Part shown: positions 346 to 36,547 of the stretch, piece after piece
Layout: the number at the start of each line of letters is the position of its first letter
How positions within the stretch are numbered: the first letter of the stretch is position 1
Assembly (NCBI RefSeq): GCF_016907055.1
Contig: NZ_JAFBBG010000010.1
Coordinates: 1 to 55,014, forward strand
Reading direction: 5' to 3'
Origin: Paracholeplasma morum
GTDB taxonomy: Bacteria; Bacillota_I; Bacilli_A; Acholeplasmatales; UBA5453
Length of the DNA: 55,014 nt
Made by a program: the position numbers and the translations under genes
Notes under the pieces: model-generated
Told to the model about the DNA's origin: nothing
The model's input: only the letters and a program-made list of their open reading frames with translations
The model's database searches: none

Positions 346-1480
346 AGAGGCTGTTCAATTCGTCTTCTTTTGATTTTTTATCCGCATACATATCCTGATC
401 TAACTTAGTGATGAAAGCCTCAAACTGATCATGTGGTTGATCAAACAATCCATAGCCAATAGAAATGCTTATCGGGTAATTATGTCGCTTTTCTTCGTTA
501 TATTGGTTTATATTATACCTGATTCTAGTGACCACGTTAACCACTTCTTTTTGAGTAGTAGCACTGAATATTCCTATAAATTCATCCCCACCTAGGCGGG
601 CAACGACATTGCTTTCTGGAAGGCTCTTCTTAACAATCTCAACGGTTTTCTTAAGAGCGAAATCCCCTTGTTCATGCCCGTACTGGTCATTGATTGTTTT
701 TAAGTTATCCAAATCGAAATATATCACTCCGAATGGTTTTTTAGACGACTCCATGTTAAAACTAATGAATTGGAAAAAGGATTCTCTCGACCAAGCATTT
801 GTCAAATAATCATGATGAATGACTCTTTGTTGTAAAAAGAGATATAAAATGATTAAAGAAAATCCTACACTTGGCCATATTAATAATAACCCATAGAATA
901 GCCCTTGAAGGATACCTCCAAGCACTGGCAATGCCGTAGCTACAGCCAATAACAGCAAGTCTTCTTTGACCACTTTTTTCCGATTAGACAGTATCAAAAC
1001 GAATGTAAGTACAATGTAGTAATACGTTAGTATCATCGTTAAAAAGAATAAATCGCCTCGATGATAGACGCCAAATTCATCTATATAAAAGACCGTGTCG
1101 AAAAAAATAGTCGATATTACTAAAATGACATTTATGATTTGTGGAAGGTAAACTATAAGCTTTGTTATTGGTTTAACAGTCATTTTTGGAACAAACATTT
1201 TCTTGATTAGCTTAAACCACATCATAGCTAAAAATGGTCCAATGATAAAAATGACAAAACTGATTGAAAATCTCAACCAAATCATGTTAAAAGTGGTTTG
1301 TTTATCTAAAATAACTGAGAATGCTTCTAGGATTAACTGAATAATGATAATCGCTGACATCACTAAATATGCTTTTGATAATTTGTCTCTGTGATTTAAC
1401 CTAATAAAAGCAATTATGGATACTAATGATAGAATGAAAGCAGTCAAGAAATTGATATCAACATGATGAATTAATTGCAT
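323..1480 (-). CDS. Membrane-bound diguanylate cyclase (GGDEF domain)
   Basis: This protein should make cyclic di-GMP from two GTP at the membrane. Residues 1-220 form about six or seven hydrophobic segments. Residues 224-375 are a GGDEF domain with the metal/substrate motif DLDNLKTIND (256-265) and an intact GGDEF at 297-301. The inhibitory I-site RxxD expected just upstream reads PESN (288-291), so product inhibition through this site is probably lost. The start has a strong Shine-Dalgarno (GGGGGGA). The stop codon and roughly the last seven residues lie inside the inferred IS3 end (323-345), so the original C-terminus was probably replaced, though only beyond the folded domain. Membrane sensor input is unknown. 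Confidence 0.85.
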   Translation of the reverse strand: MQLIHHVDINFLTAFILSLVSIIAFIRLNHRDKLSKAYLVMSAIIIIQLILEAFSVILDKQTTFNMIWLRFSISFVIFIIGPFLAMMWFKLIKKMFVPKMTVKPITKLIVYLPQIINVILVISTIFFDTVFYIDEFGVYHRGDLFFLTMILTYYYIVLTFVLILSNRKKVVKEDLLLLAVATALPVLGGILQGLFYGLLLIWPSVGFSLIILYLFLQQRVIHHDYLTNAWSRESFFQFISFNMESSKKPFGVIYFDLDNLKTINDQYGHEQGDFALKKTVEIVKKSLPESNVVARLGGDEFIGIFSATTQKEVVNVVTRIRYNINQYNEEKRHNYPISISIGYGLFDQPHDQFEAFITKLDQDMYADKKSKEDELNSLLSSRHGK

Positions 1481-5189: not shown

Positions 5190-5221
5190 AAAAAAAGTCC
5201 CTAGCTATAATAGCTAAGGAC
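5190..5221 (-). terminator. First T-box terminator hairpin
   Basis: Minus-strand arms GTCCTTAGCTA and TAGCTAGGGAC form a strong stem followed by seven T. It follows the first T-box motif (5230-5244), with which its 5' arm region competes. Confidence 0.85.
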
Positions 5222-5415
5222 GAGATTACCCGTGGTACCACCTTAGTTCTAGGTAAAATACCTAGCACTTATACCTTTAACGCAGGCATACGTTCAAACC
5301 TCAAACTTCGATTTAAAAGCTCCCAAGCACGTTCAGTAATTGTTTCTGCTAATTTACACCAACCATTAGCTCTCTTTGAAAAACAGTGTTACTTACTACT
5401 CTTGTTCATCGCAAG
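5190..5415 (-). promoter_or_regulatory. T-box riboswitch (complete unit) upstream of amino-acid ABC operon
   Basis: This is a tRNA-sensing transcription-antitermination leader. On the minus strand Stem I starts near 5412. The lower helix pairs CAAG (5401-5404) with CTTG, and the upper helix pairs AGTAA with TTACT. Between them lies a specifier loop with AGTA on the 5' side and GAACGTG on the 3' side (5328-5334). By the usual spacing (GAA, one base, codon) the specifier is GTG for valine at 5328-5330. Shifted readings CGT (Arg) or TGC (Cys) cannot be excluded. GAGAG and GGTTGGTG elements of the Stem I apex are visible, and the T-box motif AAGGTGGTACCACGG lies at 5230-5244. A promoter lies just upstream. 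Confidence 0.88.
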
Positions 5416-5419
5416 TTCT

Positions 5420-29339: not shown

Positions 29340-29903
29340 ATGAATGAAATAAAGTCATTATTCGAATTACTCGAAATGTTTAAGACACCTAGCTACGATA
29401 AGATACCTGATATTGAGTTGTATATGGATCAAGTGTTGACCTATATCAAAAAACAACTTCCACCAGTTAAACCTCAAGATAAAGAGATTTTGACTGGTTC
29501 TATGATTAACAACTATGTTAAAGACAACGTCATTAAAAATCCTAAGGATAAAAAGTATGACAAAGATGCAATAGCTCTTCTAATCATGGTAGCGAACCTA
29601 AAGAGGGTTTTACCGATTTCTGATATCAAACAAATCTTCCAACAAAAAGATGGGTTTACAGAAAATCTATATGCAATATACCAAAAACAACTTGAAACTG
29701 TCATCAAAGACATTGAGTCTGCTGGACCATGGGTAAACCATAGCTCTGAGCTCGATTTAACAGAGATTGCATTATCACTTGCTGTGGATGCTTCTATCAA
29801 GTCGTACATCGCTCATGTGATTATTAGCGGGACAAATCCAGAACCTGTGAAAGAAAAGAAGAAAAAAGAACCTAAAGACAAAGAAAAAAACGTTCATGCC
29901 TGA
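29340..29903 (+). CDS. DUF1836 family protein, probable DNA-binding
   Basis: It matches the DUF1836 family, whose hallmark is PDIELYMDQVLTYI in the first third followed by ILTGSMINNYVKDNVI. The latter resembles the winged-helix/MerR-like recognition region, with KYDKDAIALLIMVANLK after it. Function is not established. The C-terminus is highly charged (KEKKKKEPKDKEK) and may be unstructured or bind nucleic acid. Its stop codon sits inside the shared terminator and its 3' end overlaps the opposing gene by ten bases. Confidence 0.82.
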   Translation: MNEIKSLFELLEMFKTPSYDKIPDIELYMDQVLTYIKKQLPPVKPQDKEILTGSMINNYVKDNVIKNPKDKKYDKDAIALLIMVANLKRVLPISDIKQIFQQKDGFTENLYAIYQKQLETVIKDIESAGPWVNHSSELDLTEIALSLAVDASIKSYIAHVIISGTNPEPVKEKKKKEPKDKEKNVHA

Positions 29904-29910
29904 ACGTTTT
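29887..29910. terminator. Bidirectional terminator overlapping two stop codons
   Basis: AAAACGTTCA and TGAACGTTTT arms (29887-29896, 29901-29910) around a four-base loop. Both converging genes end within it (stops at 29901-29903 and 29894-29896). Confidence 0.8.
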
Positions 29911-30979
29911 TATATTTTTCAAGGGCATTACCAATGGTGTATACCTTATATTCGCTTGTTTGACTCTTAAGCCAGTTTAGAAGTTTTCTTGCTTTTGAAT
30001 TACTTTTAGTTAAGCTAATCATATGTAGTAAATTTGACTCATAATAAGGATGATCATAGTCTTTTAAAGTCTTAATGTGTGTCGCCCTATTTTCATCTTC
30101 TTTGATGAATCTAAAAAATGCTTTTAGAAGTTCAGGCGTTGGTTGAGTTAATAACATTGGCGCTTTATTCTCAATAATAGAAGTCATTTCATAGAGTTTA
30201 TTTGCTTGTTGGAGTTTCATATAGCGAACGAACTCTTTTTTTTCTGGATCGACTTCTTTCCAATTATCAAGCATTTCAAGTAAGGATATACGCCATAATA
30301 CTCTGTTGTGACTCTCTTTTTTTATGTTTAAGTCCTTAGAATAGTTATCCTTTATCTTTTGTAGTAATCCATAATCAAAGGTGTCTAATAGTAGGGTTTC
30401 ATAAAATTGTAATGACATATTCGATAATTCACTAAAGATGATATCTTTCGATAGATGCGAATAAACTTCATTAATGATGACACTAGCTTCACTACGATAG
30501 TCATCAATTAAATCCAATGTATCTATTTTGCGGTATCTAACTTCATGCATTTTCTTGTTGAAAAAGTGTGTTTCGTAGACAATCATTTTCATACTTGTCT
30601 GATCTAAAGACATGGTTGAAAACCCGACTCCACCAGTTTGATAGGTTCGGTGGGTTGGATGACCGACAATATCATTTCTAATATACTTAAGTTCATGCAG
30701 GTTTTTGTTCATGTTGATGTTAATTGAGTATTTATGGCTCATCGTAATTCGAGTCATATCGTATAACGCGTCAATTGAGACAAACAAGTTTTGAAGTAAT
30801 CCAAAGATATTTATTAATAATTTGGGCGTATTTTTTTCGGTTAACTGGTCTAAAAAAGCATTATTGATGTGTTCGGATTGCTTCAGTGCCTGTATACAAG
30901 CGATCAGTTTGTAGTAATTTTGAGTGTCTTTCTCAAACCCATTCATCGATTTGATTTTATCGAGTAGTTCAATGCTCAC
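29894..30979 (-). CDS. Protein with HEPN-like Rx5H motif, operon partner of a degenerate GGDEF/EAL protein
   Basis: I do not recognise a named family. The sequence is almost wholly helical. A segment of two helices (about residues 50-110) ends in KYIRNDIVGHP, with Arg101 and His107 matching the Rx4-6H catalytic pattern of HEPN ribonucleases, where the consensus often reads RNxxxH. The C-terminal 200 residues are helical, with no further motif I can name. It starts at GTG with GGAG seven bases upstream, overlapping the upstream gene's TGA (GTGA). The HEPN identity is inference from one motif; a structural scaffold is the alternative. Confidence 0.55.
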   Translation of the reverse strand: MSIELLDKIKSMNGFEKDTQNYYKLIACIQALKQSEHINNAFLDQLTEKNTPKLLINIFGLLQNLFVSIDALYDMTRITMSHKYSININMNKNLHELKYIRNDIVGHPTHRTYQTGGVGFSTMSLDQTSMKMIVYETHFFNKKMHEVRYRKIDTLDLIDDYRSEASVIINEVYSHLSKDIIFSELSNMSLQFYETLLLDTFDYGLLQKIKDNYSKDLNIKKESHNRVLWRISLLEMLDNWKEVDPEKKEFVRYMKLQQANKLYEMTSIIENKAPMLLTQPTPELLKAFFRFIKEDENRATHIKTLKDYDHPYYESNLLHMISLTKSNSKARKLLNWLKSQTSEYKVYTIGNALEKYKNVQA

Positions 30980-33960
30980 ACTACCACTCCTTTGATTTTA
31001 TTAATCATAGATAACTCATTCATCTTCTTTCTTGAATCCAATTGATAGATTGGTGAGTACTGCTTCAACTTATGTAAATCCTTATCTTCTAATCTGTCGA
31101 AAACCAGTCCTATGCCATGATGCTCAGCATATTCTTTTTGAGCAAATAGATAATCAAAGACTTTGCTGTCATCGAGTTTAAAACGGTCTGTCAAATGCAC
31201 AAAGTGAATGTCTTTAATCATATAATTAAATGACTCAACACCAATATGAATACCTAAATCAGACAGTTCTTTCAACCTTAGAAAATCTAGGTCAGATAGA
31301 CGGTCAGATTTAATTCTAAGCTCATATAATGTATAAGGCAAATCATGCTGTTTCAACAATCCGATGAAAAAAGGATTAAACTCTTTGGATCTAACCGTTT
31401 CTTCATCAATATCAATTGAGAGCCTAATGTACTTACCGGTTTCTTTTTCGAGTTTTTGAAGAAACTTAGCACTGGTTTTCAAAATATATCGGTCAAATCT
31501 TTCGATGATTGAGCGTTTTTTAGCAATTAGACTGTAATAGTTAGAATCCACCATTAAATTAGGAACGCAGGGATAAACTGAGTATCCAAACACTTTATTG
31601 GATTTAAGATGAATAATTGGCGAGAATTGAATTTCTAAGGACTCATTCATAATGCCCATGTTCATTTGTTCAATAATCGAGAGTTCAAAATGTTCTTCTT
31701 TGTAATCTTCAAAATCAAAATAATGATAGAACGATTTTTGGCCACGTCTTTTAGCTCTTTCCAGGGCTAGACCCAAGAAGCTATATAGTTTCTCAGATTT
31801 GGTTTCTGTTGTATTAATCGGATACCTAATGACCCCTGAATTGAAACTGAAGTGTTCATTAATGCCATCAGAATGGGCGATAAGTGCTTCGCCGTAGTCC
31901 CTCATCGCTTTTTCAACTGCTCTAACATCATTAATCGGCAATACGATTAGTAACTTGTTGTTATCAATCAGGTAAACATCTTGTTTAAAGTGGTTAAGAT
32001 GTGCTTCAATAAAGTGTTTAAAGAAACTATCGACTTTGGATAATCCATATAGGGCTTGAATGTTTTCAAGGCCATTTAACTCTGTTAATATGAAAGTTGT
32101 TTTTTGATTGGTAAAAAAAGACAATTTCTCCTCAAATGCAAATCGATTGGCCACGTTGTTCTTTTGGTCAATTAAAGCTGTTTTTAGTAAGTTATCTTCG
32201 TAGTTCTTTTGTGAGGTAATATCTTTAAACTTGCTTAGGATGATGCGTTTATTATCGACGATGATAAGCGTGGATGTTTCTTCAATATCCTTATCTTGAT
32301 ACTGATAGTTAATCGTCGATTTCCCCGTAAGGGTGGATAAGAAGTTTTTATATCGAATTTGATCTTCGCCTCGTAGTTGCTGATTAAATGCTGATATTGG
32401 CGCATACTTTGGAAAATCAAATAGTATAAGTGCTTGTTTATTAAATCGCATTAAGTCGTCTTCGACTACGCGATAGGCTGTCAAATCACTTTGATATATG
32501 GCTTTAAATAGGTCTTTTTCAAGTTCTAAAGAATGAAGAACAATATCTTTTTTGATTACGTTAAATACCAATACAGATAGCATGTTGAAGAAATCATCTT
32601 CAATAAATACATTCTTTGTTTCAGTTTGATAAAATACGATTGACCCTGTTGAATCATGATAAGTATAAAGTTGATTGATATGATCTTCATAAGGTTTTCC
32701 AGTGAGGACATCAATTGGCCATCTTACGAGGGTACGTGATTCAATGATGTCTTCCTGTCTATCAAAGGCTACATGCAAAACACTCTTAAAAAAATGTTCT
32801 TTTAACAGGGGTTTTTCATATAGTCTTCCCATTTTATAATGGTATAGTTTGTTAGGATCAACGTATATTACAGCTTCTTTAAATGGGTATTTCTTTTCAG
32901 CAATCATCAATAATTGACGTATTTTCTCTCTTAACCCTTTTATTTGATAGATTTCGATATCCTTATTTAATAGTGAACGGATGTAATCAAATGCTTCAGA
33001 CTGTTTAACTTTATTGACTTCAATGATTTTTTCTTTGATTTCTATTTTAAATGGTTCTGATTCTAATTCTTCTTTTTTAATCTGTTTAGGTTTAACAGGG
33101 GTGTCGATTTTAGGTTCTTGTTTTTTAAGAGACTTCAGTTTTTTTGAATAGTTTTCTAAGGATAATTTATCATTTTGCCTCTTATAAACATCGATTAATA
33201 ATTCATAAATCTTTTTTTGTGTTTCATAGTCTAATTGTTCAAAACGATGCTCATGTTCAACTTCGTACAAAGAAGCCTGACGATACTTATCAGAAAGAAC
33301 ATAGAGTTTTAAATAATAGTAGTCAAAGCTAGCATCCGTTTTACCTTCAAGAAGTTTTTCAAGCATTACGACATCAGCTTTTTCAACATAGATGTCTAAC
33401 TCTATTTTTTCTAGTCTAAATCTGGTTTGTGGGTCAAGTTTAGTATTTTTAAGTGAGTTAATGCTTAAAAGTGCTAAATCAAATTCATGATTGCCTATGT
33501 ACTTATCGACTTTTTCAATTAAGAAATTCGATTTAATTTCATCAGGCAACACTTCTTCTAGTGCTTGATCAATTAACTCAAAATAAGGCATATTAAGTGC
33601 TTTATGGAGCTTGATTAAGTCTAAATAATACAAATAGTGCTTAAGAATAGGCAACGTCTTTCTGCGTTGATTAATGGCTTCAATCGCATTATCATAGTCT
33701 TTCTTTTCAATATATGCATCGACGGTTTGTCTTAGTGCTTTTTCATAAAGAGGATCGTCTTGTCGGTTTTTTAAAGATGTCATAATATGCGTCAATAGTT
33801 GTATAGCAGTATCTGAGTTGCCATATTCAATCAATATATCAGCATAAAAAGATTCTACTAAGAGAATCTCATTTAAGTCGTGTGTTTCGGCTAGAAAAGC
33901 CTCTATTTCTTTAAAACTCTCTTCAGTTTTCGGTAGTTTCAATAGGGCTTTAATGTTCAT
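30976..33960 (-). CDS. Multidomain protein with TPR-like, GAF/PAS-like and degenerate GGDEF-EAL domains
   Basis: This 994-residue cytoplasmic protein has four parts. Residues 1-265 are repeated helices resembling TPR. A charged linker follows to about 330. Residues about 335-600 are two sensor-like domains (GAF/PAS-like). Residues 605-745 are a GGDEF-like domain, where DNNKL near 665 replaces GGDEF. Residues 760-985 are an EAL-like domain where EAL reads YSV near 791, and DDFGTGYS-type DD reads ES near 910. All metal-binding motifs I can align are lost, so neither cyclase nor phosphodiesterase activity is expected. It may be a c-di-GMP-independent scaffold or a receptor. It overlaps the HEPN-like gene by four bases. 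Confidence 0.8.
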   Translation of the reverse strand: MNIKALLKLPKTEESFKEIEAFLAETHDLNEILLVESFYADILIEYGNSDTAIQLLTHIMTSLKNRQDDPLYEKALRQTVDAYIEKKDYDNAIEAINQRRKTLPILKHYLYYLDLIKLHKALNMPYFELIDQALEEVLPDEIKSNFLIEKVDKYIGNHEFDLALLSINSLKNTKLDPQTRFRLEKIELDIYVEKADVVMLEKLLEGKTDASFDYYYLKLYVLSDKYRQASLYEVEHEHRFEQLDYETQKKIYELLIDVYKRQNDKLSLENYSKKLKSLKKQEPKIDTPVKPKQIKKEELESEPFKIEIKEKIIEVNKVKQSEAFDYIRSLLNKDIEIYQIKGLREKIRQLLMIAEKKYPFKEAVIYVDPNKLYHYKMGRLYEKPLLKEHFFKSVLHVAFDRQEDIIESRTLVRWPIDVLTGKPYEDHINQLYTYHDSTGSIVFYQTETKNVFIEDDFFNMLSVLVFNVIKKDIVLHSLELEKDLFKAIYQSDLTAYRVVEDDLMRFNKQALILFDFPKYAPISAFNQQLRGEDQIRYKNFLSTLTGKSTINYQYQDKDIEETSTLIIVDNKRIILSKFKDITSQKNYEDNLLKTALIDQKNNVANRFAFEEKLSFFTNQKTTFILTELNGLENIQALYGLSKVDSFFKHFIEAHLNHFKQDVYLIDNNKLLIVLPINDVRAVEKAMRDYGEALIAHSDGINEHFSFNSGVIRYPINTTETKSEKLYSFLGLALERAKRRGQKSFYHYFDFEDYKEEHFELSIIEQMNMGIMNESLEIQFSPIIHLKSNKVFGYSVYPCVPNLMVDSNYYSLIAKKRSIIERFDRYILKTSAKFLQKLEKETGKYIRLSIDIDEETVRSKEFNPFFIGLLKQHDLPYTLYELRIKSDRLSDLDFLRLKELSDLGIHIGVESFNYMIKDIHFVHLTDRFKLDDSKVFDYLFAQKEYAEHHGIGLVFDRLEDKDLHKLKQYSPIYQLDSRKKMNELSMINKIKGVVV

Positions 33961-33963
33961 TTG

Positions 33964-34815
33964 TTATACCTCGTGGTATTCTTTTTCCAGTTGTGTAGCT
34001 TTTTCTAAGTATTTTAAAGCAACCACATCAAACGGAATATGCAATTTTTCAGATAGACCGATTTCATGTTTGAAGGTTGCTACTTGATGCCATTGTAAGG
34101 TTTGAAACATACGGTAGAAAATCAGTTTCTTCATTTCTTCTTTGGTTGGTTTTCTACCCAAATAAACATCCAATAATGCTTTAGCATCACTAAAATCCAT
34201 GTTTCCAAAACATGCTATATCATAATAAGGATCGTTATTTCCTGTGAATTCAAAGTCTACTACTAGGGCACGTTTGTCAGTAATAATGAAATTAGATGGT
34301 TGTGCATCTCCGTGACAAAGTACTAAAGGATCATTCTTATAAAGTTCATATAACTTTAACCAATGGTCTTTTAATACAAAATAGTTATCATTATGAGTAT
34401 GATTCAACTTCTCATACTTCTTTAGTCTGCCAATCATATCGTAATCATTCAACGCTTTTAATCCAGATCTGTGAATTACTTTTAGTGTGTTTGATACAGC
34501 TTCTAAGTGATTATGTCTATCGAGTGTCGATAAAATTTCACCTTCCACATACTGTGCGACTTTAATCCCAGAGACCAAATCTAAATAAACAGTATGATTC
34601 GTTATCCCCAGTGGTTCAACCAGTTCGATATTTTTAAGCTCAATACCACGATCGACAAAGTTTTCTGCCTTTTCACCAGGTAATCTGAATGTGTATTTTG
34701 CACCATCTGCCTCGATGACATAAGTATAATTACTCATCCCACCTAAAAGTCTATGAACAATACACACTTCTTTGTTCAGTATTTGACTTGCTTTTTCAAT
34801 AATTAACGTTTCCAT
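33964..34815 (-). CDS. LicA/choline-kinase-family phosphotransferase
   Basis: This protein of the aminoglycoside-phosphotransferase-like fold has 283 residues. Motifs: the nucleotide-loop region GGMSNYTYVIE near 25, the catalytic loop LCHGDAQPSNFI near 165-176 with Asp and Asn, and the metal-binding Asp in VVDFEFTG near 185. It most resembles LicA and bacterial choline/ethanolamine kinases, but thiamine kinase is an alternative. The start follows AAAGGAG. It is one base from the phosphoesterase gene and three bases from the GGDEF/EAL-like gene. Confidence 0.82.
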   Translation of the reverse strand: METLIIEKASQILNKEVCIVHRLLGGMSNYTYVIEADGAKYTFRLPGEKAENFVDRGIELKNIELVEPLGITNHTVYLDLVSGIKVAQYVEGEILSTLDRHNHLEAVSNTLKVIHRSGLKALNDYDMIGRLKKYEKLNHTHNDNYFVLKDHWLKLYELYKNDPLVLCHGDAQPSNFIITDKRALVVDFEFTGNNDPYYDIACFGNMDFSDAKALLDVYLGRKPTKEEMKKLIFYRMFQTLQWHQVATFKHEIGLSEKLHIPFDVVALKYLEKATQLEKEYHEV

Positions 34816-34816
34816 T

Positions 34817-35260
34817 TTATACTCCTTTTTTTAAAACAATTTGACCATCTTCATAAATCGCATATTCAGGAATAATGTTGGATATTGCGCCTGGATTAAT
34901 CAATATGATATTTTTATAATTTGTTATTTTTTGAACATGTGTGTGACCATAAATGACGTAATCCACTTTGAGGTTTAAAGCGAGATCAATCAATTTATCC
35001 AAACCATACTTAACGTTTTCAGTATGTCCATGTAGTACCAAAAAGCGTTTGTGGTCAATGGTTTTTACAATGTGAATCGGCAATTCTAAAAACCGATCAG
35101 CATTTCCACTAACGGCTTCAATATGCAATTGGTCGTACTCTCTTTGAGTAATCACTAAATCACCTGCATCTAGATGAAGGTCTCTATCTGAGTGTAGATT
35201 TTGAATCATTGATAAACGATCAAATCTACCGTGGGCATCAGATGTGATTAGGATTTTCAC
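34817..35260 (-). CDS. YfcE/MJ0936-family metallophosphoesterase
   Basis: A small two-metal phosphodiesterase of 147 residues. Metal ligands visible: Asp8 and His10 in TSDAHG, SGNADR near 52, LHGH near 77 and YGHTH near 104. Members hydrolyse model phosphodiesters or cyclic nucleotides in vitro, but natural substrates are mostly unknown. Overlaps rdgB by four bases; both are often neighbours in Gram-positive genomes (YsnB beside YsnA in B. subtilis). Confidence 0.88.
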   Translation of the reverse strand: MKILITSDAHGRFDRLSMIQNLHSDRDLHLDAGDLVITQREYDQLHIEAVSGNADRFLELPIHIVKTIDHKRFLVLHGHTENVKYGLDKLIDLALNLKVDYVIYGHTHVQKITNYKNIILINPGAISNIIPEYAIYEDGQIVLKKGV

Positions 35261-35826
35261 TTGAATGACTCCTTAACCAAATCTAGCGCAAGTGCTCTAT
35301 GAGATATCGTATTTTTGGTTTTCGTATCCAGTTCTGCTAAAGTCTTATCCATTCCGGGAATATAGAATACTGAATCATATCCAAATCCGTTTGTGCCTCG
35401 CCTTGACGTTGTAATCAATCCATCTAAACGGCCTTTGAAACTTTGATAGCTTTGGTCCTCAGGGTTGTAAATCACAATGACCGTCATAAAGTAAGCATCT
35501 CTAAACTTAGACCCATTTAATTCGTCTAAAAGTAGATCAATATTCGCTTCATCGCCTAAACCTGAATATCTTTGAGAAAATACCCCTGGTGCACCATTTA
35601 AGGAAGTGACGCATAGTCCTGTATCATCTGCTAAAGTAAGCATGTTATGTTTCTTTGCGAAATAACTGGCTTTTAACAGTGCATTTTCAAAGAATGTGTC
35701 TCCAGTCTCTTTGACATCATCAAAATCTTTAAGGTCTTTTAAAGAGATGATATCAAAAGAATCCTTTAAAATCGCTTCGATTTCTTTTTTCTTAAACTCG
35801 TTTTGTGTGGCAACTAACAATCGCAT
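35257..35826 (-). CDS. rdgB: XTP/dITP pyrophosphatase (RdgB/HAM1)
   Basis: It removes non-canonical purine triphosphates (ITP, dITP, XTP) to their monophosphates, keeping them out of nucleic acids. Motifs: ATQNEFKKKE at the N-terminus, ADDTGLCV with the metal Asp near 67, GFGYDSVF near 143 and SHRALAL near 175. At 189 residues it is full length. Start follows AAAAAGGGGC; an extended -10 (TGATATAAT) lies upstream. It begins a five-gene operon through the HEPN-like gene. Confidence 0.93.
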   Translation of the reverse strand: MRLLVATQNEFKKKEIEAILKDSFDIISLKDLKDFDDVKETGDTFFENALLKASYFAKKHNMLTLADDTGLCVTSLNGAPGVFSQRYSGLGDEANIDLLLDELNGSKFRDAYFMTVIVIYNPEDQSYQSFKGRLDGLITTSRRGTNGFGYDSVFYIPGMDKTLAELDTKTKNTISHRALALDLVKESFK

Positions 35827-35849
35827 AAGAACGCCCCTTTTTGTTTTTT

Positions 35850-35858
35850 ATTATATCA
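35850..35858 (-). promoter_or_regulatory. Extended -10 promoter of rdgB operon
   Basis: Minus strand TGATATAAT, 24 bases before the rdgB ATG. Confidence 0.55.
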
Positions 35859-35872
35859 CAAATTGAAAAGAA

Positions 35873-35895
35873 AAAAATCAGTTAGAAACTGATTT
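35873..35895 (-). terminator. Terminator of ktrA-like gene
   Basis: Minus strand AAATCAG and CTGATTT arms followed by TTTTT, starting at the gene's stop codon. Confidence 0.7.
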
Positions 35896-36547
35896 AGTGT
35901 AAGATACTTTGGAATTTTGAAATACGATCATGTTTTCCAAGCACGATGACAATGTCTTTACTGCGAAGTTCACTATCGGCTTTAGGTAAAATTACATTCT
36001 TACCTCTCTTTATTAGTAGAATGTTTACATCAAAGCGATTTCTAACATCAAGATCAACGACCTTAGTACTCTTAAACGTTTCGCTGATGAATATTTCATA
36101 GACACCATAATCATCTGTAATATTATAGTAGTCTAATACGTTATCAGACAATAGTCTTCTCGCTAAACGTTTACCTGCAGATTTCTCTGAGGATATTACT
36201 TCGGTTGCTCCAACTTTTTCTGCTACTTTTGCATGATAGTCATTGTCAACTTTGACAGTGATTTTATCTACTTTTAAATCCGCAAGAATCATGGTTGTTA
36301 AAATACTATTTTCAACGTTACCCGGGATTGAGACAATCGCATGGTCAGCATGCTGAGCACCAATTTCTCTTAATACGTTGATATCAGTTGAATCTCCAAT
36401 TACCGCATTCTCAACAAACGAAGTAACTCTACTTATAGCTTCTTCTTTTCTATCTAAAGCGATTACGTCAGCACCCAGGCTGGTTAATTCTTCACATAAG
36501 GCTATTCCAAATGTGTCTAGACCTATGACTAAATAGGTTTTTTTCAT
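35894..36547 (-). CDS. ktrA: KtrA/TrkA-type potassium channel regulatory protein
   Basis: This cytoplasmic regulatory subunit of a K+ uptake system has an RCK_N Rossmann domain (1-140) and an RCK_C domain (about 140-217). The nucleotide-binding motif GLDTFGIALCEEL lies near residues 8-20, and ENAVIGDSTD near 47-56 carries an acidic residue that contacts the ligand. It gates a partner KtrB/TrkH membrane subunit in relatives. No KtrB gene is visible here; it may lie elsewhere. Start is confident from GGATGTGATAAT spacing. The divergent gene begins 100 bases away. Confidence 0.88.
   Translation of the reverse strand: MKKTYLVIGLDTFGIALCEELTSLGADVIALDRKEEAISRVTSFVENAVIGDSTDINVLREIGAQHADHAIVSIPGNVENSILTTMILADLKVDKITVKVDNDYHAKVAEKVGATEVISSEKSAGKRLARRLLSDNVLDYYNITDDYGVYEIFISETFKSTKVVDLDVRNRFDVNILLIKRGKNVILPKADSELRSKDIVIVLGKHDRISKFQSILH

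Follow-up and report, generated by a model that had tools for sequence, protein, structure and literature searches.

A degenerate GGDEF-EAL multidomain protein genetically coupled to a putative HEPN-type RNase in Acholeplasmatales

Related systems and the locus in Paracholeplasma morum

Degenerate GGDEF-EAL proteins are widespread, and few of them have a known output. In type III CRISPR systems, a GGDEF-fold protein controls a HEPN RNase: Cas10 makes a messenger that binds the CARF domain in Csm6/Csx1. LapD and FimX have the GGDEF-EAL fold with catalysis lost; they bind c-di-GMP via retained EAL ligands, with a protease trap or pili as output. The membrane-bound, degenerate GGDEF-EAL protein CsrD of E. 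coli is needed for the cleavage of CsrB/C by RNase E, a housekeeping enzyme encoded elsewhere (PMC5876332). Known HEPN RNases (RNase L KEN, RloC, PrrC and the HEPN-MNT toxins) combine an acidic residue in helix 2 with an R-polar-x-H site where helix 3 ends (PMC3710099).

The window analysed here, a stretch of 55,014 nucleotides from the genome of P. morum (1.56 Mb, 29 contigs), contains two overlapping genes on the minus strand: one for a degenerate GGDEF-EAL multidomain protein of 994 residues (30976..33960), hereafter BIG, and one for a HEPN-like protein of 361 residues with a GTG start (29894..30979), whose family occurs in 106 of the 160 Acholeplasmatales genomes surveyed. The 3' end of BIG reads GTG GTA GTG TGA and the HEPN-like frame begins at the last GTG, giving a 4-base GTGA overlap (30976..30979); the coordinates of both reading frames and this stop/start overlap are as the initial annotation had given them. 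Its placement of the pair in an rdgB operon likewise holds, as the minus strand carries an operon-like run trkA-rdgB-yfcE-like-kinase-BIG-HEPN, in which the four upstream genes (a kinase of the APH/choline kinase fold, a yfcE-like phosphoesterase, rdgB and a trkA-like gene; 33964..36547, minus strand) keep their order in relatives and the pair closes the run. A bidirectional terminator-like stem (29886..29911, no strand assigned) ends it where the HEPN-like gene meets a converging DUF1836 gene. Elsewhere in the window are a T-box leader (5213-5418, minus strand; Rfam RF00230, 153.9 bits) and, at the window edge, a second GGDEF domain with a strong match (365-817, minus strand; 112.5 bits).

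We read the pair, with moderate confidence, as a sensor/adaptor-effector module for stress-linked control of RNA or translation. CsrD offers, by analogy, a precedent for the logic of a dead GGDEF-EAL protein controlling an RNase: like CsrD, BIG is catalytically dead, and the control of RNA cleavage documented for CsrD (PMC5876332) is what we propose for BIG. The two differ in that CsrD is membrane-bound and works with an unlinked RNase E, whereas BIG, predicted to be soluble and cytosolic, includes TPR-like, GAF-like and PAS-like parts and has a HEPN-like partner of its own, to which it is coupled at the gene level. Control of a HEPN RNase by a GGDEF-fold protein, as proposed for BIG, would be shared with Cas10 and Csm6/Csx1, but BIG has a dead GGDEF domain, and the pair lacks a CARF domain.

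Domains and lost active sites of BIG

An AlphaFold2 model of BIG built with 48 homologues reached a mean pLDDT of 87.5 but a pTM of 0.44, so that the individual domains appear reliable and their mutual arrangement does not. In the model a helical-repeat solenoid is followed by GAF-like, PAS-like, GGDEF and EAL domains, an order which agrees with the TPR-like part, two sensors, GGDEF and EAL earlier proposed from the letters of the sequence. The TPR-like solenoid (residues 1-280; 33121..33960, all BIG features being on the minus strand) and the GAF-like domain (residues 322-489; 32494..32997) are labelled from secondary structure in the model, together with weak TPR matches in a few members of the family and conservation of YKxxRLYxK in the GAF-like part; a low-confidence linker lies between them at about residues 285-320. 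The PAS-like domain (residues 490-593; 32182..32493) is drawn from the model and from a structural alignment with the PAS-GGDEF-EAL portions of DosP and PA0861 that begins at about residues 474-491. The GGDEF domain (residues 594-742; 31735..32181) and the EAL domain (residues 743-993; 30982..31734) both match Pfam above the cut-offs (1e-5 and 7.6e-11, respectively), the EAL domain aligns with 4rnj (VIA Z 23.5 over 235 residues) and the tandem with 5m3c_B (VIA Z 29.6 over 395 residues, rmsd 7.7). BIG is, by Pfam and VIA together, a GGDEF and an EAL fold in tandem, and Foldseek and VIA group it with the GGDEF-EAL proteins DosP, PA0861, PA0575, LapD and FimX.

The motifs of BIG were compared by alignment to the intact paralogue and EAL protein of the same genome and surveyed in the 48 homologues. 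The intact GGDEF, EAL and DDFG motifs of an active diguanylate cyclase or EAL phosphodiesterase are absent from the BIG of the window: GGDEF is replaced by DNNKL, DDFG by ESFN and EAL by SVY. The first two replacements had been recognised at the outset, and the third had been read as YSV, one residue off. Relative to the genome's own intact EAL protein, BIG also lacks the EAL glutamate, the asparagine, the DD pair and the lysine. Each of the 48 homologues has a degenerate GGDEF and, taken as a whole, a degenerate EAL motif, yet the EAL glutamate is kept in many. Conservation specific to the family lies instead in YKxxRLYxK (residues 375-383; 32812-32838) of the GAF-like domain, in NDxR (residues 677-680; 31921-31932) of the dead GGDEF domain, these two being the most conserved motifs of BIG, and in Y793 of the EAL domain. 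We know of no described counterpart for YKxxRLYxK and NDxR, both of which persist in genomes without the HEPN-like gene.

The fold match to LapD and FimX raises the question of whether BIG is a c-di-GMP receptor of their type that relays c-di-GMP levels to the HEPN-like protein. The P. morum genome has 13 GGDEF and 6 EAL matches; because several of them keep canonical motifs, the cell probably has working c-di-GMP signalling, and 14 GGDEF/EAL proteins have been reported in A. laidlawii (PMC2408644). Intact GGDEF and EAL proteins in the same genome and the absence of the pair from small phytoplasma-like genomes would suit a receptor. However, the EAL ligands through which LapD and FimX bind c-di-GMP appear to be missing from BIG: in an alignment of the BIG of the window, no RxxD I-site precedes the GGDEF position and the usual ligand and metal residues of the EAL domain are not recognisable. 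With these canonical sites apparently gone, a c-di-GMP receptor role would be a guess, and one that we regard as clearly improbable. The output that we propose for BIG, a HEPN protein, also differs from the protease trap and the pili of LapD and FimX.

Motif and predicted fold of the HEPN-like protein

The HEPN-like protein was modelled with 52 homologues (pLDDT 92; secondary structure by DSSP). Its N-terminal domain (residues 1-177; 30449..30979, minus strand) has helices at residues 20-44, 51-80, 92-106 and 154-177 and beta strands within 118-153, and is followed by an all-helical C-terminal domain (residues 178-361; 29897..30448, minus strand), in which R226 is nearly invariant. The Rx5H motif RNDIVGH, residues 101-107 (30659..30679, minus strand), is the putative RNase site; the initial annotation had singled it out as typical of HEPN RNases, and its Arg101 and His107 are indeed conserved. 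R101, N102 and H107 are invariant in 52 of 52 homologues and again in an enlarged set of 58 that includes a family outside the order; G106 is likewise invariant in the 58. All of these sequences show the arginine followed by a polar residue in an Rx4-6H spacing (R101-N102-x4-H107) that is characteristic of the active RNase type of the HEPN superfamily. With members only 24-59% identical to the protein of the window, this invariance, as read from the alignments, is far beyond chance. In the model, at the level of topology only, R101 lies within helix 3 and H107 just after its end, and D70 (30770..30772, minus strand), a candidate acidic active-site residue that is invariant in 58 of 58, lies in helix 2, which corresponds to the published HEPN anatomy (PMC3710099).

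The arrangement also departs from known HEPN RNases. Beta strands follow the motif, and the protein continues into a separate helical C-terminal domain; a beta hairpin directly after the motif has been described in Csx1 (PMC3710099). Unlike in many HEPNs, which have Ex3[KR], no basic residue stands four positions after D70, and the motif continues, as RNxxxGHP, with a family-specific P and R. The partner, BIG, is neither a nucleotidyltransferase nor a kinase, in contrast to known HEPN partners. Searches detected no similarity in sequence or fold: no family in Pfam, NCBIfam or PADLOC covers the protein, no HEPN chain was among the Foldseek and VIA matches to the model, a profile search of PDB sequences returned only chance matches, and the family profile did not match HepT, RiboL-PSP or DUF4145, HEPN families which in this test also missed each other. 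The HEPN fold suggested earlier thus finds a counterpart in the topology of the model and none in the fold searches.

These departures leave some room for another function, in which the HEPN-like protein would be a structural or RNA- or nucleotide-binding helical partner with no RNase activity, RNxxxGHP would serve binding and BIG would act as a scaffold. Such a protein might be expected to show just this lack of a match to known HEPN families or structures, the additional P and R after the motif and the missing Ex3[KR] at D70; a strictly invariant arginine, polar residue and histidine, placed as published, speak against it, and we think it quite unlikely. The predicted topology is favourable to a HEPN-type fold, and the invariant Rx5H motif within it makes the protein probably a (putative) RNA-cutting enzyme.

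Distribution, coupling and proposed role of the pair

A survey of 160 genomes of the order Acholeplasmatales found both genes in 101, BIG only in 20, the HEPN-like gene only in five (mostly incomplete genomes) and neither in 34, mostly of a small phytoplasma-like genus, so that the pair, whose presence in relatives the initial annotation had left to be checked, is common in the order. The co-occurrence has a Fisher p of 1e-15, a value which ignores phylogeny and draws its strength mostly from the phytoplasma-like clade. Nearly all free-living Acholeplasma relatives have the pair, including A. laidlawii, A. palmae and A. oculi; outside the phytoplasma-like genomes it is core, single-copy and not mobile across the Acholeplasmatales. 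Stop and start overlap in 51 of 54 linked pairs, 35 of them by 4 bases, which implies translational coupling. The pair is adjacent again in a family outside the order, there in a different operon, relA-dtd-BIG-HEPN, whereas in Anaeroplasmataceae-type genomes the genes are unlinked and the HEPN-like gene stands directly upstream of typA/bipA in 30 loci. Where one protein has diverged further, the other tends to have done so as well (r 0.83 between the pairwise divergences over 37 genomes, uncorrected for a third gene), which fits mostly vertical inheritance.

BIG alone in 20 genomes means that it has a further role or a second partner. One genus with small genomes (0.6-1.0 Mb; L246, L247, G140-G144) has BIG and no HEPN-like gene, and in two loci of this genus a flavin-oxidoreductase-like gene lies 3' of BIG. 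Hidden HEPNs beside BIG in such genomes were sought and rejected, as the neighbours, judged by sequence, resemble proline-biosynthesis enzymes, NADH:flavin oxidoreductases and an ABC ATPase. A comparison of BIG between genomes with and without the HEPN-like gene, made to find residues lost along with that gene, yielded weak candidates only, and we claim no interface from it. In A. brassicae (G005; L206, 6576-10749) both genes are frameshifted while eleven neighbours are intact, suggestive of joint inactivation; because homopolymer runs lie close to the breaks and the genome was partly sequenced by 454, so that error and true loss look alike, we did not count this as evidence. The HEPN-like gene is also split in L174, L195, G135 and G139, by real inactivation or by MAG assembly error.

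In the main rival to a sensor-adaptor role, the HEPN RNase would be toxic and BIG would inhibit it in the manner of an antitoxin; a toxin-antitoxin-like module would have taken on a housekeeping role, and growth would stop if BIG were lost or switched by its ligand. HEPN domains are frequent toxins (PMC3710099), the two genes are translationally coupled, and the HEPN-like gene rarely occurs without BIG, and then mostly in incomplete genomes. Against this, the genes are single-copy and core, and the linkage is not constant as in toxin-antitoxin modules, since the genes are unlinked in Anaeroplasmataceae and BIG stands alone in 20 genomes. A multisensor protein of 994 residues is, moreover, unlike the usual antitoxins. 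A classical toxin-antitoxin role is therefore disfavoured, and we judge the inhibitor reading as a whole unlikely. The possible anti-phage switch of the initial annotation fares worse. HEPN RNases are frequent defence effectors (PMC3710099), but the genes are single-copy and core, their neighbours (rdgB, relA-dtd, typA) are housekeeping genes, the divergence of both proteins is fairly congruent, and a PADLOC scan of the HEPN-like family gave no coherent match to a known defence system; we consider a defence function very improbable.

The sensor/adaptor-effector reading draws on the dead motifs in 48 of 48 BIG homologues, on R101, N102, H107 and D70 invariant in 58 of 58 HEPN-like sequences with a HEPN-like predicted topology, on the stop/start overlap and the co-occurrence of the genes and on the pair being kept together in two unrelated operons (rdgB-type and relA-dtd). 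BIG alone in 20 genomes and the unlinked genes of the Anaeroplasmataceae count against it, as does the failure to match any solved or curated HEPN by structure or by profile, although the profile test has no power. The sensor-to-effector pair first proposed is backed by the invariant motif, the confidently predicted sensor domains, the dead motifs and the gene coupling; its anti-phage part finds no support. The two proteins are predicted to be made together from the overlapping genes. In the mechanism that we propose, BIG would bind the HEPN-like protein and gate or target its activity, triggered by a ligand sensed by its GAF, PAS or dead GGDEF-EAL domains, and the HEPN-like protein would act as a metal-independent endoRNase, with a logic like that of CsrD, the degenerate protein which makes RNAs susceptible to RNase E. 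Because relA and typA/bipA act at the ribosome or in the stringent response, their neighbourhood suggests a role in stress or translation, and stress-linked control of RNA or translation, as part of the core biology of the Acholeplasmatales, would be the most likely physiological role.

We found no paper that joins HEPN with a GGDEF and EAL domain or with Acholeplasma, in a search that was thin on subscription journals, and co-mentions of HEPN with diguanylate cyclase appeared incidental by title and abstract; the pairing is likely to be new. The evidence suggests a switch, so far undescribed, in which sensing is coupled to the cutting of RNA and which probably serves stress or translation control and not phage defence. 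More tentatively, the HEPN-like proteins could form a new family of HEPN RNases, gated by a pseudo-GGDEF-EAL protein that is dedicated to them and senses a ligand. The pair would then be a core regulatory system of Acholeplasmatales not described before, through which these wall-less bacteria connect what they sense (perhaps the nucleotide or (p)ppGpp state) with RNA cleavage and translation stress. In the BIG family the dead GGDEF-EAL protein has a dedicated partner, coupled to it genetically and with an intact RNase-like site, and both occur in culturable Acholeplasma species, which makes the output of such a protein directly testable. If our reading is true, it would add to the HEPN families one that looks like part of core regulation and not of conflict, and to mollicutes a candidate layer of post-transcriptional control.
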